A stretch of 64,000 nt of DNA from Pegea sp. RAD2-039 (lineage: Eukaryota > Chordata > Thaliacea > Salpida > Salpidae): the NCBI GenBank assembly GCA_034620365.1, contig JAQGEQ010000046.1, positions 558,001 to 622,000 on the forward strand, in the 5' to 3' direction. This document shows, piece after piece, positions 13,738 through 25,822 of the stretch. The translations under genes were made by a program, and so were the position numbers. Position 1 is the first letter of the stretch. Every line of letters begins with the position of its first letter. The notes beneath the pieces are model-generated. The model did not search any database and was not told the origin of the DNA. It saw nothing but the letters and a program-made list of their open reading frames with translations.

Positions 13738-16700
13738 TCATTTGCAATGAGGACATCGGGGGGTGGCTCCTCTTCGAACAAACCTTTTGCCATTCAAATT
13801 TTTTCGACATTTCTGTTGAAGCATTCAAATAAAAATCACTTTACAGAAAACTATTTTGAAAATTTATGAAAAAAATTAATCTCTTAAAAAATGCTTTTTA
13901 CAAATTGCAGAAATTCTTAAGCTTATATCGAAACTTCATCACCTCCTTTTATCCATCCAAACATGTTCTTTAGTGCATGTCTAGACATTTCTAATGATTT
14001 TCAATTTTAAAAACAATCTCGTTCGCATTTAACAAATGTAATTTTTAAAGAAAGCCTTTTTATCAGCAAAAAATAAATCTATTAAAAAAATTCTTACACT
14101 ACAATTGAAGCAATAGTCATGCCATTTTTTGTCCATGATGTCAATTTCGCTTTGACCAGCAACAATGGGCTTTTGGCAGGACCAGCAAACCACTTTGAAC
14201 AACTTTTCATGGTCTATAAAAATGGTGAAAAATGAGATGAATCATTTATGATATGTTTATAATTTTGATAACTTTCACACAATTTTTGGTTCTTGAACAA
14301 TACATCGATTGTTTCATGAAAAACAACTTTATAATTCATAAATGGAATGTAGATGATTTGGGTTTGGTTATGAAATTTGTTCAAAAATTCGTTCCAACAT
14401 TGTTTGTATATTTAAAGAATTTCGATAATTTTACACTCACAAAAATAAAACGAAATATAAAGAAGTTTTATCAAGCGTGATTTCAAATTCTCAGAAAGTT
14501 TTCCTTCGGATAATATTACCTTCATTACAGTAAATATTTCCATTTTCTAAGTGAAATACGCCACCAAGCGGAGGTTTTTTACACTCAATACATAGAAAAC
14601 ACTCAATATGCCATTGAAGATTCAAAGCACGAAAAGCATCCTTGAAAAATTATAAACATTGTTTCATCATTCAAAATATCGTTTGCAACCAGGTTATTTA
14701 GTCATAAATTACTTAAAATCATATTTTTCATTAATAAAGTTAAACTTTTAAAAGTTACTTTGAATATAGGCTTTTGGCAGGCAATACATAGTTTGGAAAA
14801 GTACTTTTGATGGCAATCACTGCAATAACAGCGATTTTGTTCAGTAAAATAACCTTCTATCAGATTATTTGAACAGTTAGTTGCTGCACATACAAAGCAT
14901 CCTGAATGAAAGTGGTCTTGTTTGACACTTAAGTACTCCCTGTAAACATAAGGTGGCAGAGTAATTTTATCTATTTTTATGAAGGTAAAGAGTTTAGATG
15001 AAGTCTGTTTCATTTAATTATGAACATTTTAAAATAATGAATGGATTTAAATAAAACTTGCAATAGTTATTTACATACGTATCAAGAATTGGGTCGCCAC
15101 ACGCTTTACAAAAGTCTCTCGTATTTCGTAGTCTCCAACGAGAAGAATCACTTCCTTCTGAAAGCGGAGTTTGTGATCTAACTGATTCAAATTCTCTTCC
15201 AATAGTCACCAAGTTTCCATATGTTCCTTGTAACAGTATGCATCCATAAGTGACCGCAAAAAAAGTTTCATGAAACTTTCAAACTAACTCTATCTACACA
15301 AGGAAATGGTTTTCTAAGAGCCTTATTGTCAATTTAATTTTATTTCCTGTTTTAAAACGAATTTAGAGAATAGTTTGATTGAGAAAATAGCTGTAACTCT
15401 CATGAAGTAATTGATGATATAAACGGATAATAATTATGAATTAAAGAAAAAAGTAATTTACATTTTAAGCTCAAGATAGTTCGATTTATAGCAATCAATA
15501 AGGCTGTCAAAATCACTTGAAGACTTAAACAAACTGTGCTTTTACAATTTTTCATGTTGTCTAAAGTTAAAAGTATTTAGAAAATAAAAGCTAGTATTGA
15601 ACACTCTAAATGCTTATACTAGTTGAAGGTATAAAAGTTTGTTGCCACTACAAATAACTGAGTTTGTTTCACTTCAGATTATCGTTTTAATATCTATTTT
15701 TAGAAACCACAACTACTGGTTATAAATAAATTTATTCTAACAAGCAAAATCTGGTACAATTAAGCAAGAACTGATTTAAAGTTTGGTACAAAGACTGATA
15801 CGAAAATACAAGCATCGTATTAATGAGTTTTGAAAATAAGCTATATAATAAAACTATTACAAAATCTATATTTTTAAGGAAAACCTTTTTTGCCTATTGG
15901 TCTTGGCTTCTCCAAGTTTTTTGCTTGTTTAACCATCTCGGGTTCTTTTGATTGTGCTTGGCATGGATGGATATCCCATACACTTGCCCTACATGAAGTT
16001 AAGCAACATAATGTTTTAAAATCCCTATAACCTTATTTCAACATAGTTTGATAAAATTATTCAAATTTTGTTAGAAAATTTCGCTCACTAAAGATGGTTT
16101 ATAGCTATAAAATATTTCATTTTTTGATTGAAAAATAATTCTGTGATTAAAAACTAAACAATGAACAAAATTAATACTAATACTTGCCCAGTGTTAATAC
16201 AATAGTGAGATAACATAGAAAGAACTAATAAGTAAATACTACATTCAAATGTATAAATAGTTTTGAATTAACATCATAATAATCATCAGACACTTTTATT
16301 ATTCAGTACTCTCATTCATTACAGTATAAATTAGGTAACTACTTACAGCTTTATTTGCAAATGTAAGTTTCCTTGTGATGATTTTATCATCTCTTGGGCA
16401 CCGTCAAGATTACAGTTAGTGAGAACAATTCCATTTATTGCTTGTATGATATCTCTACTTTTCAAACCAGCTTTAGATGCTGGGCTACCAGGGTTGACCT
16501 AATTGTAGTAAATATTTTGTAAATAAAATTCAGTTTCTAAAAACTGCATTATGCAAACTGGATAATTTTGTAGATGTCAAAACTAAAACTCTGTAAATTT
16601 TTATGAATATTCATATTTTTTAACCTAAACCGTTTTTATGACTAAATAAATAGAATTGATTAATACTGTTTAATCTATCATTAGTTTATTGAAATCATTG

Positions 16701-16850
16701 ATGCAACAACATGGAGATAATTAACAACTTTTAAAACATAAAACTCAATAATCTAACCTGCGAAATAACGATATTACTGGTCTTACTTGCTGTTCCTAAA
16801 ATTCTGAAACCCCAAGGGGGTCCGCCAGTTAAAATAACATTTTCAGACAT
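13738..16850 (-). CDS. PDLIM: PDZ and triple-LIM scaffold protein (Enigma type)
   Basis: Minus-strand exons 16850-16758, 16498-16347, 15988-15885, 15226-15079, 14939-14759, 14640-14520, 14213-14098 and 13812-13738 join in one frame of 329 residues. Residues 1-82 form an N-terminal PDZ domain: the carboxylate-binding loop reads PWGF, followed by NPGSPASKAGLKSRDIIQAING. A linker of about 70 residues follows. Three LIM domains make up the rest. LIM1 starts at Cys156/159 with HSGCFVC. LIM2 starts at Cys217/220 with WHIECFLC and ends C264-x2-D267. LIM3 starts at Cys276/279 with WHDYCFNC and ends RCPHCK. PDZ plus three C-terminal LIMs is the layout of PDLIM5, PDLIM7 and LDB3, which link actin/alpha-actinin at Z-discs and stress fibres to kinases. 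The linker is far shorter than in vertebrate LDB3, so the copy cannot be assigned to one paralogue; a pre-duplication orthologue is likely. Confidence 0.9.
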
Positions 16851-18147: not shown

Positions 18148-19723
18148 ATGATTTATTCAAGCGAAATCTATGCGCTGTTATCTGCATCAGAAGTATTATT
18201 TTTGATGCTGCCTATCATTTTTTCGATAAGAAAACGAAAATTTTTGTTATTAGCTGTGTATCTTTTAACTATGATCATCGGATTTGTAAGTTTAAAAAAT
18301 TTATGAAAATGATTAATTATATCATTAAATCTATTCTAAATTTTTTTGCTCATTTTTATTTGTATTTTGATTTTATATGTAACAATTTGTAAAGTATATG
18401 ACTATAAAAATTAATTTCAATCTATTACTAAAAAAGACTGTTTATGTAAATCATTTAATTAATATTTGATTAATAAAGAATATTTTTTTCTGAATTATAT
18501 CTCTTTTGGTTACAGCTTTCTTCTTCAAGTTTTTACCTCAACATGATTCACGAAAACGAAAAATTAAATTTCGAAGAAAAAAATCATTTTCATGAGATTT
18601 TAAAAAGAAATAAGAATACCGTTGAACTTATTGACGTTTCTGCAAACTCACTTTTATATTTTTCAATTGCTTTAGCGTTTTTTTCATTCTTAGGTGACAT
18701 CAAAAAGTATTTGTAAGTCAAATAGAATTTTTGTAAGACTTTTGCTTTACTTAAGGCAATTAATTTAGTTACAACCATTCAGTTCCTAGTAATTAATTGT
18801 TGTTTTTAGACGTTTTAAAGAATTTGTGAATAATTTAGAAATTGATATATTTATATAATTGACATGTTGAAAGCAGTAATCAGCTTGTAACTTACAATTT
18901 AAGACAAACAATTTATAAAATATAAATCTTTATCTAACTTTTACATTATTTCTTTTAAGATTGTATTTTAGAATGAAAACTCTATTTTACAACTGATGGT
19001 ATTTACTATTAATTGAATTAATTAAATCATTATTAAGATAATTAATTAATCGAACTATAAAAAACTATTTTTGCTTTTATACTAATCAATTCTTTACTTT
19101 GTACAAACTAATTGCAACCTTTTAAAGTATAAAAAAGCTTGTATTACCAAATTATATGAGTTTGTAATAACTTTTTATAATGCAGCAAGCTAGGGTACAT
19201 TTTTTTCGCCTTTCTTGCGTTTATGTTTGGTAAAAACTATATTCCAACAAAAGAATGGCACATAATGATTATTATGTCAACTATTTCTATCTTTGCTGCA
19301 TTCTTAAATATGGTAAGTTTCTAAAATCAATTAGAATAATGTTTATGGAACATCATAAATTTGACATAATTAAACTTATAACCTTTCAGATTTATAAGAA
19401 AGTTGTGTTTGCAATCAAGATAACAGCTAAAAGAATGAAAATAAAATCTTTTAGCATTGCTGTAATCTTTTTTGTTTCAGCATCCGTATGTAAAGGATAT
19501 TTTGAAAGGTTTGTTTATGTTTTAGAGTTTAATAATAAGAAGCACTAGAAGTTTTTTTTCAAGAATTTGGTAGCAGTTTCATCGATAAAAGTTTTAAAGT
19601 TTGAATATTTTCACCAGATTACATTTTATCGCTTTTCGGGTTTGCTTTCTTGCGTTCATAGCTGTAACTTTAGCCTCGCTGATTCCTCCAAGAGACGAGA
19701 AAAAATCCAGTGATAAATCATGA
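18148..19723 (+). CDS. Myomaker/TMEM8-family membrane protein, copy A
   Basis: Five exons, 18148-18285, 18516-18712, 19186-19312, 19390-19508 and 19618-19723, encode 228 residues rich in membrane segments. The layout follows TMEM8/myomaker. A first helix leads to a basic patch (FSIRKRKFLLLAVYLLT). A polar loop and an acidic-led helix follow (NTVELIDVSANSLL). Further helices lead to a final helix ending TLASLIPPRD, like the LLLPPPD end of TMEM8, plus a short charged tail DEKKSSDKS. Intron phases are 0, 2, 0, 2, the same as in the two neighbours on the other strand. The last exons resemble copy C most closely (FR-CF---I--TL-SL). The paired histidines that TMEM8 and vertebrate myomaker have before the last helix are replaced (AFRVCF), and there is no C-terminal cysteine cluster. 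A polyadenylation signal AATAAA lies near 19814. Family membership is an alignment by eye; function is unknown. Confidence 0.65.
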
Positions 19724-21045
19724 AATATTTTATGAATCTCTTGCTCTTACTATTTTTTTCAAAACATTTTTTTTTCTGTTTAAGATGATTTTTATATGAA
19801 ATTCATTCTTGTTAATAAATGTTTCTAAATCAAATTTATTTACAAAAAAATTATAAATGTTATAACGTCATTACAAATAAAAGTTTACGGTTACATAAAA
19901 GTTGGAACAAATTCATCAAAATGAATCAGTAAAGCTTAATCTAATTTTTTGAAATCAATTCTTAGTAAAGTGTAAAGTGAATAAATAAAAATAATGAATA
20001 GTTTAGTTAATAAATAATTATCATATTTATTTAAACTATGTAATAAACAGGATAAAAAGAATCAAGATAACACTCATGAACTGTAGTAGACTAACAGATC
20101 TAAAAACATAATTCAAAATCAAACATTAAAAATAAATGTAGATGTAATAACTAGTTCAACAAAATATGTGAAATAAGCTATATTTTCAATGAAAATAAAA
20201 AACTTTGTTAGCTTGAAATATTTATTATATATTTAAGAATGGTAGTATTAGAAAGTAACACAAAAAAAGATTAAGCTTTTCAGTTACTCATTTAAAACTT
20301 CAGCTTTGATAGATTTTTGTGAAACCATTTTTTGACTAACAATGTTTTTTAAGTAACAAGTATAAAATAGATTTTGCTTTTATAACTGGTTCACGAAGAA
20401 TTAGATTAATATCCAACATTTTTCTTCACTTAAAGTTTTAGCTTTTTTATTACTTAACAATTTCATACAGATTAAAAAGTAGAAAATAAGTAAAAAAGTT
20501 GATGGATAATTTTAGATAAGTATTTTAAACTGTTAGTATAAAAAACTTGTTTACAATTAAAAAAAAAGTTTATACTTTGCAATAGATAATACTTTTCATT
20601 CAATTATTATCATTATTAAAAAACTTGGAAAAAAATCTGTTTTGATTTTGACGCTTTTGGAAGGTTAGTGTTTATTATGATTAGCTTTCCAGAATTAGTT
20701 TATAGCTTTTGTTTAAATTTAAGTCTAACATAAATTCATTCATTGTTAACTTTAAAAACAAACTATTAGGTTTATAATCTATTAAAGTTTAAGTTCTTGC
20801 ATTTTTTAAATATAACTATTGTATTTTTCAAAAATGTTCTTTAACTATAAAATATCATTCTATGAATTAAATAATTGAATGAAGATATGAGATATTATCA
20901 AAAATTAGTTTGAAGTTCTGATAGTTACCAATCTAAATAATTTTTATTCATTCAATTTTTTTGAATATGAATCGAAATAGTAAGTAGCTGTTCGAGTGTT
21001 TCAAGAGTTTGTAAAAAGTTTGAAATAAAGTTTCATTTTTATTCT
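19724..21045. other. Intergenic between convergent copies A and B
   Basis: AT-rich 3' flanks of two convergent genes. No coding exon or repeat was recognised. Confidence 0.4.
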
Positions 21046-22617
21046 TTAACAGCAACAAAGACCTGCTATAACAATTTCAGACATTGGATCTACTCCGAGT
21101 TGAGATTTATCAATGTCTGCCGATTTAGCTTCTTGAGCTTTACTTTTTTGAAGAAAAAAACTGAAGGAAACTGATGAAAGTATGAAGAAGAAAACTTGAC
21201 AAATATGTTCGTTATAACTGAAATGTTAAAATGTTTAAATTTTGAAACTATTAATGTTGTTAAGGAAGTAACATTGTTTTAAAATGTCAATATAACTTTT
21301 GGAAGATGCTCACCTATATCTCCACTTGAATCTTATAGCTATACAAATTAATCCAAATATTAAACCAGGAACTATCGCTTTAGCATAATGTTCTGGTTCA
21401 GGGTGAAGTCGTCGGTTTTTAACAGTTGTTATGAACTGAATCACAAATAAGAAGTTTTAAACAAGTTTGGAATAATCCATTTTTTGAAAATGTTTAATAA
21501 TGTGCTACACTGAAATCTTCTTCACTTACAATTGAAGTCAGTAACTCACATTTAAAAAAAATACGATGGTGGCTGCTGATCCAATGATAAAACAAAAAGT
21601 GCTAAAAGTGGATGGATCTTTTTCATACATTGTAAATATATTGATAATTCCAAAGATTGTTACTACTGAATTCCTGAGTTTACAAGAATATGTTATATAA
21701 ATGAAAAACTTAAAATAATTCAATTGTTATTCTTGTATTTAATCAGCTTCAATTAGCTTTTAAGTACAATTTTATTGAATTGAAGGCTTATGAATTTTAC
21801 TGAATTCTTTTCTAGTGTAACTTACAATTTGTCTGAGCTCATAACTGTTGAATGCATTATAGTAGAAGCATAGGCCAAAGAAAGAATGTAGTAAGAAAAA
21901 AATGACAATGCATTTTCCATGTGGCCAAGCCCAATAGAATTTCTCAGAAAAAATATCTGAAAATTACTTTTTCAGTTATATAAACTTGTTCTAAACTTTT
22001 ATTCTAAATTTTAAGCTGTATCCAATCTTCTAATAACAGTTTTATAATAGTTGTCTACAATAATATAAGCATTTTGTAGATGTTAATTTTACATTTCAAA
22101 TTTATTTTTTATTTTGATAAATGTAGATTAGTTGAATAATAGTTGGTAAAATATTGAAAATTGAAAAAATAATTTTGAATAATTTCAAACAATTAACTAG
22201 TTAGTAAAATCAAACGAATACTCTGTAAATGTTTTTCTAAAAATCTTTGTAGTAAACTGATAATGCAATTTACAAAATGGTTTTACAAAAATTTTGTAAT
22301 AAATGTAAACATTTTTGTCAAAATAAAGAGTTTATAGTGTTAATTATAGCTGTATAGTTTGTATAAGATTAGAATACTTCACTATTTTTCAACCTTTATT
22401 TAACATGCTAATTACTTTGCTTTCTATAATGAAACATTACTTTCAAAAGTTGTATCGAAAGATTATGTAAAAATTATGTACATACCATGAAGACAACGAT
22501 TGTATAAACATAAATAAAAACTTGTCCATACAGTCTCCTTTTAAGTGCAAAAAAGGAAGGAACTAGCAAGGAAAGATAAGAAATCATTTCAAATACTTGT
22601 CCAGCAGTGACAGCCAT
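21046..22617 (-). CDS. MYMK: Myomaker-like cell-fusion protein, copy B
   Basis: Myomaker is the plasma-membrane protein needed for myoblast fusion in vertebrates. Minus-strand exons 22617-22486, 21956-21826, 21673-21550, 21435-21314 and 21217-21046 encode 226 residues (human MYMK has 221). Points of agreement are an N-terminal helix running into ALKRR and a YVYT helix, LSFFS at the position of LEYFS, and VVTIFGI. A basic loop carries LHP where MYMK has LYP, followed by IVPGLIFGLICIAIRF (human IGPGLCFGALALMLRF). A single His is kept before the last helix (YNEHICQVFF). The protein ends LCCC, matching the C-terminal cysteine cluster that is palmitoylated in myomaker. The HHACN box of vertebrate MYMK is missing. 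Of the three copies, this one is closest to MYMK. A more general TMEM8-like role cannot be excluded. Confidence 0.75.
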
Positions 22618-23802
22618 CTTTTCAAAATTTTCTTACCAGAATTTTTGATTAATAAGCTTTAAGATAAAAAAAATAGAATAAGAAAGTTATTTAGCATAAT
22701 AATTCTAGTTATTTTGTGCAAAAATTTTTTTTTTACTATTTGGTTAACTATTATATATTTTTTAAAAGTTTCCCAATAAAAAGGTTTTAATAAGATAGAA
22801 AATTTATTAATTTTCACCACAATAGATTTTTTGATACAAGTTAATATTTGAAACAATATTCTAAATGTTTTATTTATTACTTATATAGTTATTAGAAATA
22901 AATAACTAACTTTGTAAAAATCCTGTCTTTTAATCCAATTTTAATAAAATATTATTCTTAATCTCAGCTAGGCTATATTTTGTACAAACTTAAAAACTTT
23001 CTACAATTAAAAAAAATCTTTAAAAAAACTCAAAACTTTTAAGACTATTCTCTCTATAAATTTTTTTCTTTGTCAGTTTAACGAAACTCGAATTGCAACT
23101 TGACTAAACTTATAGTAAGAAAAACTTCTAAAAATAACAAAATTTACATATTAGGTCCTTTATATATGTTTTTAAGGAGTTTAACATTTTAGTAAAGTTA
23201 TTTTAAGATTATGTTTTTATACCTGTGTAAAAGATGACGACAAAAACAATTTTTTAGTAAATTAGATCCAACAACAATTTACTCATAAGTTTGTTTGTAC
23301 AGTAATTAGTACAATTTAAAAATAGTTTTTAGGAAATTATTATATCTACAACAGCTGCATTTTGCATGTTAGATCGTTTATAAGAAATTTATAGTTTAAT
23401 GTTAACTTAAGATCTACTATTACTGACGTTCGAGTTTAAATAGACAAACCAGAGGTATAATATACCACCAAATAAATAAGATGCCTTCTTTTAGACATAT
23501 TTTCCTTTTGCTGAATATGACTAATCATCAAAATACTGTCGAAGTTGCATAAACTAATAGTATAAAAGTTACTTTGTTAATGAAGAGCCGATGAAATCAT
23601 AAGTTAGCACTTTAAGTGAAATTATTTCAACTTTCTCAAATTTTTATTTCTTAATTTAATTTTTTAAATAGCCCTATACAAAAATTTCAACATCTTTAAC
23701 TGTAATTCTTATTTTGGTAAATTTTATTCTTTCTTATAAGTTAATATATTTGTTATTGATAATTAGTAATAAAAAAACGAGTATACAAATAGAATAGTTC
23801 AA
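22618..23802. other. Intergenic between copies B and C
   Basis: AT-rich 5' flank of copy B and 3' flank of copy C, which are tandem on the minus strand. No exon was recognised. Confidence 0.4.
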
Positions 23803-25822
23803 TTAGCTGAAATCATATTCATATCCAGCCAAAGAAACCAAAGTCATGCTGATAAGAATGTAAAAGCAAATTCGGAAAGGAACAAGAATAAATCTGAAAA
23901 AAATACATTTTTGATGTTTTTTCTACTTTATAAATGGAGTTAAATTTTATAAAAATAGTTTTTCTAAAGATTTGGTTTTAAATATACAAACTAGTAATCA
24001 CTCTTCAAGCAGGCCTCTACATATAATTGCTGTTGTATACATGGCGATCGCAGGAACTAAAGACTTCAGTATCAGTTGCTTATAATCGCTAAACTTTTTT
24101 CGCTTTTTCACTATAAAGTATATCTGAAAAATTGAAACTTTATATTAAATATCTCTTAATAAAAGTATCTGAAGTTCATATTGCGTTTAAAGTCATGTTT
24201 TAAAACAAGTAATTATATAAATGTGATATAACTAAGTAACTAGGAGTTAGAAAGATAAGAAATCAAGATTTAATAGTTTCTGTAGCTTAAAACTCATAAG
24301 AAAAAATTGTGATGGTTTGCAGTCTGATGGAAAATTCAACTTTAGGTTTAGATTTTAAAAGTATCTAAAACGAAAAACGATATTGATTTAAAACAAATAG
24401 AGCATCTATAATCATATTTTAATGTTTTGTATATGCTGCATGTTACATTTAATTTAGAGCTTATTTACTTTTACTGTGAATGTATGAATGTATAGTTACA
24501 TGTAATAATAAACTTTCAAAATTGCTATAAACATCAAAATTTGAAATAATTCTTTTTAACTCTGTAATGTTTTTTTTTTTCTCATAGTTCTTTTACTTAA
24601 ATATAAAGTAAATTAGAAATGAGAAATAATCTCTTTGTTGTATTTCAGTGTTTATATGATACTGGCGAATTGCTTAACTATCATCAAAATTAGAATTAAT
24701 ATCTTTCAACTATTTATAAAATAATAAATTAATGAAACAAACTTAAACTTAACTTCATAACAGAGCATCTCACAAGTTTTAGAAACGTCCATTTAACTAA
24801 ATATACTTTTCAATATGACTTACCATTACCCCAGATGAAATTGATAAAGGTATAACACAGAAAATCACTAAAGAATTCCAAAATTTCCAAAATTGTACTT
24901 GTATTACATAGAAAGAAAATAAAAGAGAAAGTCCTCCAAAAAGTCCACGAATAAGAAGTCTGAAAACAATTTAAAACAGTTTATATCCTGAAAACGTTTT
25001 AATCACTACAAAGAAGATACTTGTTGTTTTAATGTAGAAAACCTGTTGTAAGACAGTTTTTAAAGTATTCGAGTTAAAAAGTAACTAAATTTTGTCAATA
25101 AGTATCCTAATTAGCTTTTAAATTACAAAATTATTGTGCTAAAATGTTGTCAAAAATAGCTTCTTTTTATTTATTTTTAAAATATAAAATATATTCTTAC
25201 ATTTTCCAGTCAACATCGTTGAAAGATAAAAGAAAAGCTGACGAAATTGAGGTTAGTAGGATTGGTTTTGCGATACGATCAGTTATATAAGCTGCTTTTT
25301 TAAGTGGAGGCAGTATATGTTTTTCAACACGCCGTTTGTGTTCCATTTTAAGATTATAAGCAACGAGACTACTTTCATCGAGAATATTGAAACTAATTTC
25401 ATCAAAGTTTATTGAACTTTCTATCTTCTTACTAACTTCGTTCACAGATTCAAAAACCTAATCGTAGATATAATTTCAAAGTTAATTTAGTAAAGATATA
25501 ATTTAACAAACACTAATAACCAAGTGAGTAGCTTGATTCAAAAATTATTGATGCATTTAAAAAATATTTTTGATTATTCTAAAGCATAATTTGTAATAAA
25601 CTATTTGTGTTTTTTAACTTGTCAACAAGTCTTATAGCTTAGGCTATATCTAGTAGCAAAATATCAAAAATAAAAGCTTACAAAGCAAGATATTGCTGAT
25701 GTCAAAAAAAGCCCAAAAAATAACCAGTTCTTTCTTCTGAATGAATATATGGCTGGTATAATTAAAAGTAAAGAAGTTAACCCAGTCATCAGTGGATATA
25801 AGATTGTACTAATTAGGCTCAT
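23803..25822 (-). CDS. Myomaker/TMEM8-family membrane protein, copy C
   Basis: Minus-strand exons 25822-25682, 25457-25201, 24959-24824, 24123-24002 and 23893-23803 give 248 residues with intron phases 0, 2, 0, 2 as in copies A and B. The first exon shows the family pattern (TSLLLIIPAIYSFRRKNWLF). Exon 2 is enlarged by a loop of about 50 residues (KKIESSINFDEISFN..), then TDRIAKPILLTS and an acidic SFNDVDWK turn matching the ADFDEPK turn of myomaker. Exon 4 starts IYFIVKKRKKF as copy A starts IYKKVVFAIK, and exon 5 (VPFRICFYILISMTLVSL) is clearly related to copy A. The C-terminus is short (GYEYDFS) and lacks the cysteine cluster. The frame is open upstream of the chosen ATG, but that ATG gives the family-typical N-terminus. 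Function is unknown. Confidence 0.63.

Follow-up and report, generated by a model that had tools for sequence, protein, structure and literature searches.

A 64,000-nucleotide stretch of DNA from the salpid tunicate Pegea sp. RAD2-039 (contig JAQGEQ010000046.1, positions 558,001 to 622,000; hereafter the window) carries three neighbouring genes, here called A, B and C, that encode short multipass membrane proteins. On balance, we favour the reading that the cluster is a tunicate-lineage local expansion of myomaker (MYMK, also TMEM8C), in which B would act in muscle-cell fusion and A and C would be its partners or modulators. B is classed here as a myomaker homologue with departures; A and C are treated as likely paralogues of B and are not themselves counted as myomakers. 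An earlier note on this DNA had already proposed such an expansion. The likely common origin of the three genes and the kinship of B with myomaker uphold that proposal, but B departs from the textbook protein and a tree of four sequences was undecided on its placement.

The gene structures were rebuilt by splicing exons from the DNA. All three genes are complete, have five exons each and lie inside 7.7 kb, with identical intron phases (0, 2, 0, 2) and GT...AG at 12 of 12 introns, in agreement with the earlier description of adjoining genes for 228, 226 and 248 residues. Gene A (18148..19723, plus strand; exons 18148-18285, 18516-18712, 19186-19312, 19390-19508 and 19618-19723) encodes a putative seven-transmembrane (7-TM) MYMK-like paralogue of 228 residues. 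Gene B (21046..22617, minus strand; exons 22617-22486, 21956-21826, 21673-21550, 21435-21314 and 21217-21046) encodes the 226-residue divergent myomaker homologue, which ends in LCCC, and gene C (23803..25822, minus strand; exons 25822-25682, 25457-25201, 24959-24824, 24123-24002 and 23893-23803) encodes a second putative 7-TM MYMK-like paralogue, of 248 residues and sister to A. Exon sizes, in the order A, B and C, are similar for exon 1 (138, 132 and 141 bases), exon 3 (127, 124 and 136) and exon 4 (119, 122 and 122), and dissimilar for exon 2 (197, 131 and 257) and exon 5 (106, 172 and 91).

A hydropathy scan, with 15-residue cores and a threshold of 1.35 chosen by us, revealed seven hydrophobic cores in each protein, distributed 2-1-2-1-1 over the five exons, and an additional weak eighth stretch at the C-terminus of B; the scan is crude, and on the stretch of the myomaker sequence 8t05 from PDB and a TMEM8-type protein of the same genome it overlooked one known helix and took a loop in its place. 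The first core begins at residue 10 in A and at residue 11 in both B and C, so that all three have the short form without an N-terminal ectodomain. The proteins differ in the segment between the TM2 and TM3 cores, which measures 12 residues in B and 24 in the myomaker 8t03, and is lengthened to 44 residues in A (exon 2, 18516..18712, plus strand) and 63 in C (exon 2, 25201..25457, minus strand). Under myomaker topology this segment would be extracellular. A basic loop follows TM1 (net +4, +3 and +3 in A, B and C) and another precedes TM6 (net +7, +2 and +6). Myomaker itself is defined as a short single-domain protein of about 220 residues that lacks an N-terminal ectodomain (PMC3146951).

A and C are homologous. 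They are 29% identical, none of 300 shuffles reached the score of their whole-length alignment (z 18.7), and when the proteins alone were aligned, their exon boundaries fell in the same column at four of four positions. With that score and that coincidence of boundaries, A and C are real genes and not chance frames. Exons 2 and 3 of the pair are weak when taken singly, with 20 and 123 of 500 shuffles, respectively, reaching the score. Their extreme divergence and the disappearance of every family motif would also suit decaying duplicates without function, but A and C retain intact frames, all splice sites, seven hydrophobic segments and their mutual identity. Neutral decay would hardly leave these at such a distance, and we regard decay as very improbable.

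The kinship of B with myomaker was confirmed by database comparison. All four of its matches among PDB sequences were myomakers (E 2.9e-11 to 5.1e-10), and it matched the Pfam family DUF3522 at E 2.2e-6 (28.4 bits, just below the cut-off of 29.3). We take 8t03, 8t04, 8t06 and 8t07 to be mouse myomaker and 8t05 to be that of Ciona; the PDB entries name only 'Protein myomaker' or 'Myomaker'. B was identical to 8t03 at 44 of 186 aligned positions, to 8t05 at 39 of 180, and to L001, the TMEM8-type protein of its own genome, at 43 of 221, with alignment scores of 147 for 8t03 and 100 for the TMEM8-type protein. At the 43 columns where 8t03 and 8t05 agree and L001 differs, B matched myomaker 11 times and L001 four times; it shared the residue common to 8t05 and L001 against 8t03 at three of 11 columns. 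Judged by its sequence, B is homologous to myomaker but divergent, and does not follow the textbook protein.

It is also conceivable that B is a second, shortened TMEM8-type gene from which A and C arose, the true myomaker being missing from the genome or the assembly. Several results favour this alternative or weigh against B as a myomaker. In a four-sequence tree (B, 8t03, 8t05 and L001), the log-likelihood (lnL) was -1804.5 with B beside 8t05, -1805.1 with B beside L001 and -1808.3 with B beside 8t03; the tree with B beside TMEM8 is only 0.5 lnL units worse, and the comparison does not separate a myomaker from a TMEM8 placement. In 32 columns 8t03 and L001 have a residue in common that 8t05 does not; B matched this residue 12 times, and so, in plain residues, does not stand nearer to the chain of Ciona type. 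B keeps nine and has lost 15 of the 24 gap-free columns identical in 8t03, 8t05 and L001. In the alignment, inspected by eye, it also lacks counterparts of R107 and GVYxGP, which are common to both PDB myomakers. Against a TMEM8-type origin stand the residue count of 11 to 4, the higher score with 8t03, the short form and the LCCC tail, and we consider such an origin improbable. We prefer to see B as the myomaker homologue of this genome, probably the orthologue, fast diverged. A further point from gene structure is only a lead: an exon-2 donor-site morpholino of vertebrate myomaker, set in the zebrafish frame, would put intron 2 at codon 84 in phase 1, about 10 residues before the second intron of B (phase 2). 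That morpholino is printed in PMC5504296.

The earlier note had credited B with clear myomaker hallmarks. The short form and the CCC tail bear this out, but the histidine triad is lost. H48, H180 and H184 of 8t03 align with F47, Q177 and F181 in B, and H174 of B would meet H180 only with a three-residue shift; both PDB myomakers and L001 keep the triad. These three sequences also contain HxxxH, which is absent from A, B and C. SxxxH at the end of TM2 is found in none of the three proteins, and B has two SxxxH elsewhere. PMC3146951 describes CREST as a superfamily of seven-helix putative hydrolases with SxxxH in TM2, aspartate in TM3 and HxxxH in TM7, and reports that TMEM8C has lost the serine and the aspartate of this site. 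As aligned, B is one step beyond TMEM8C in that loss, the histidines being gone as well. A, B and C would then be seven-helix proteins of the CREST kind without metal-binding histidines, and because these histidines are absent, they are probably not hydrolases.

A joint MAFFT alignment of A, B and C put B out of place with large gaps, and for this reason exon-anchored tests were adopted for the link of A and C to B. Exons of A/C were compared one by one with a family profile of B, 8t03, 8t05 and L001, using plain shuffles and shuffles that kept the hydrophobic pattern. The exon-by-exon total gave z 5.7 with plain and z 4.7 with pattern-kept shuffles, none of 150 reaching the score in either case. 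Exon 1 (z 6.2, 0/150; pattern kept, z 4.6, 1/150) and exon 4 (z 4.2, 1/150; pattern kept, z 4.6, 0/150) stood out. Scores of exon 1 of A against B, 8t05 and 8t03 were reached by only 1, 2 and 3 of 1000 plain shuffles and by 4, 2 and 16 of 1000 pattern-kept ones, while the same exon was unlike the TMEM8-type protein L001 (830/1000). In pairwise comparisons, exon 1 of A and B gave z 5.5 (0/500), the remaining four exons of this pair not being significant, and B and C gave z 2.2 (15/500) for exon 1 and z 1.7 (32/500) for exon 4. With the shared phases, the helix-per-exon layout and the two basic loops present in all three proteins, the exon 1 and exon 4 similarity to the family profile is consistent with the earlier view that the three genes descend from one ancestor. 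We consider this common origin likely; it rests more on gene structure than on residues.

Other comparisons count against a link of A and C to B. Exons 2, 3 and 5 of A/C gave nothing significant against the family profile, and the true exon order ranked only fourth among 120 orders. Exon 1 of C, taken alone, matched neither B (96/1000) nor the myomakers (539 and 683 of 1000). At whole length, A and B were weakly similar (z 2.4, 4/300 shuffles) and B and C were not (z 0.3, 106/300). A profile-profile comparison of A/C with the family returned probabilities of 3.1% and 1.7%, the stretch aligned being exon 4, in register. Neither A nor C, searched singly, had a credible Pfam or PDB match (the best Pfam match of C, at E 0.025, lay below the cut-off of that family), and a joint A+C profile had no match in PDB. 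The window lies in an assembly of 105.7 Mb and 387 contigs. When this assembly was searched with each of the three proteins at E up to 10, neither of the other two genes was reported; the plain A-C pair was missed too.

Neither at whole length nor in the databases are A and C significantly similar to the myomaker family, as would be expected if they belonged to an unrelated seven-helix family that shares phases and position with B by chance. Chance would, on the other hand, have to account for the same four phases, the helix-per-exon layout, the comparable lengths of exons 1, 3 and 4, the shared neighbourhood, and similarity in exons 1 and 4 that exceeds pattern-kept shuffles. We therefore hold an unrelated family to be unlikely. 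The earlier note had named placement of A and C in another membrane family by profile search as one result that would speak against its proposal; Pfam and PDB credibly claim neither protein.

In the order of events that we infer, a duplicate of the same five-exon gene would have given rise to an A/C ancestor, which would have been duplicated a second time and diverged much further. B would reside in the plasma membrane of muscle cells that fuse in the body wall or the siphons and, with its cysteine tail lipidated, bring outer leaflets to mix. This follows the case of Ciona Mymk, which is expressed in the precursors of the multinucleated muscle that forms after metamorphosis and restores fusion to vertebrate Mymk-knockout myoblasts (PMC11441980); by homology, B most likely does a job like that of Ciona Mymk. 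The C-terminal tail of vertebrate myomaker is needed for fusion and has three palmitoylated cysteines (PMC5793351, PMC10150476). B ends in LCCC, a resemblance of motif only; A ends in SSDKS and C in YEYDFS. Because the cysteine tail is absent, A and C would probably not drive fusion alone. Their enlarged TM2-TM3 segments, which would lie outside the cell if the topology is myomaker-like, may instead suit them to partner B, to modulate it or to serve as its receptors. For A and C we prefer, at low certainty, the role of partner or modulator.

The alternatives considered here overlap in part with the reading we favour, and the likelihoods attached to them are not meant to sum to one. One of them is that the paralogues have moved out of muscle fusion. 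They would form a pseudo-CREST set whose ligand, a lipid or something else, is bound or sensed in another tissue, with fusion left to B alone or to none of the set. We regard this as the less likely course, albeit a real possibility. It would account for the missing HxxxH in all three proteins and the missing cysteine tail in A and C; vertebrate myomaker deprived of its tail no longer supports fusion (PMC5793351). It would also fit the upstream regions: nothing stood out among E-box, EBF and MEF2 patterns in the 1 kb upstream of A, B and C, and this want of a muscle-type cis signature likewise tells against a role of the cluster in muscle fusion. Upstream of B there was a single CAGCTG, at -740; upstream of C there were two EBF-like sites, each with two mismatches (window mean, 0.43 per kb). 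A departure from fusion is harder to reconcile with the short form and cysteine tail retained by B, and with the position of A, which lies head to head with a gene containing PDZ and LIM exons.

This neighbour (window 14032-16850, minus strand) looks like a PDZ-LIM gene of the ALP/Enigma type. By eye, its first codon lies at 16850 on the minus strand, about 1.3 kb from the start codon of A. Members of the PDZ-LIM family are often expressed in muscle. The arrangement would fit shared muscle expression of A and its neighbour, and proves nothing.

A genome search with the Pfam model PF12036 reported a single locus, L001 (C114:202990-203538; DUF3522, 155.6 bits), and no second one; the search scores the best candidates only and missed B also. 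Having missed B, it is blind to divergent copies, and further divergent members of the family may exist. L001 (G000:C114:201490-205038, open reading frame (ORF) 3195-1345, minus strand) is of the TMEM8/PGAP6 type, with 616 residues from the first ATG in one open frame; it carries the CREST motifs SSFYH and HSIWH, and its N-terminal region is long. The gene looks as if it were a retrocopy or had lost all its introns. Beyond its own exons, B found L001 at E 0.24 and four weak matches on C32 at E 0.07-0.37 (G000:C32:1515832-1523936, within 8 kb). The C32 matches were judged spurious as family members and dropped, because in the one locus read (L007) the frame looks RNA-binding by eye and the match contains stops. 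The matches lie in what seems to be a group of like repeats of a gene with an RNA-recognition motif.

The tunicate origin of the DNA was borne out elsewhere in the assembly. Cellulose synthase with a GH6 domain is a mark of tunicates among animals. Contig C14 carries a cellulose synthase ORF (C14:72138-72908; PF13632, E 5.8e-17; PF03552, E 1.1e-7) and, 1.6 kb downstream of it with no change of strand, a GH6 match (C14:74494-74718; E 1.2e-4, 27.5 bits, against a cut-off of 27); the two (locus G000:C14:72138-74733) would form one gene. Mitochondrial COX1 had no match in the assembly. The other neighbours in the window, spanning 4091-63181, were assigned from one tested exon each, with extents judged by eye. 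They are an HMG-box gene (~4.1-5.0 kb, minus strand), a UFSP2-like peptidase C78 (~12.7-13.5 kb, plus), a dual-specificity phosphatase (~34.7-36.3 kb, minus), a C2H2 zinc-finger gene (54.6-55.3 kb, plus), a lipoyl transferase (57.5-58.8 kb, plus), a PGAP2IP-like gene (~59.3-62.9 kb, minus) and a CX9C-like protein (62.97-63.18 kb, minus), the last just below its cut-off.

The myomaker family is known; to our knowledge, local multiplication with such change has not been described. Literature on myomaker in tunicates, ascidians and Ciona yielded no report of several Mymk genes, the main evolutionary study (Zhang et al. 2022) lying outside the coverage. A bolder proposal, which we advance as speculative, is that one myomaker became a three-member set, a metal-free, tail-bearing myomaker with two tail-less, long-looped partners, doing jointly the work of vertebrate myomaker and myomixer. 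If true, this lineage would have assembled a fusion machine of several parts out of copies of one gene. Myomixer is described as vertebrate-specific (PMC8805411), and the cluster also raises the question of whether a lineage has made its own partner in its place. The cluster could reveal which losses and gains a fusion protein tolerates while being retained: a homologue without the triad, together with two tail-less, long-looped relatives, offers a natural means of asking which parts of the fold are required for fusion.

Compared with known systems, the three proteins resemble CREST members in their seven core helices, and the Pfam family nearest to B is a CREST family; they differ in having neither HxxxH nor an SxxxH that ends TM2, and thus do not carry the histidine motifs of an active hydrolase. 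The long TMEM8A/B (PGAP6-type) proteins, represented here by L001, are comparable through the DUF3522 transmembrane domain, for which B scores just below the cut-off and which A and C do not match; A, B and C have neither the long N-terminal region of L001 nor, of its CREST motifs, HxxxH. A and C are of the same size class and helix layout as myomaker, and differ from it in lacking the histidine triad, the cysteine tail and HxxxH and in their longer TM2-TM3 segment (44 and 63 residues). B differs from myomaker in having lost the triad, R107 and GVYxGP, and agrees with it in its length of about 220 residues, its seven predicted helices, the absence of an N-terminal domain and its C-terminal cysteines; myomaker is also its best database match.

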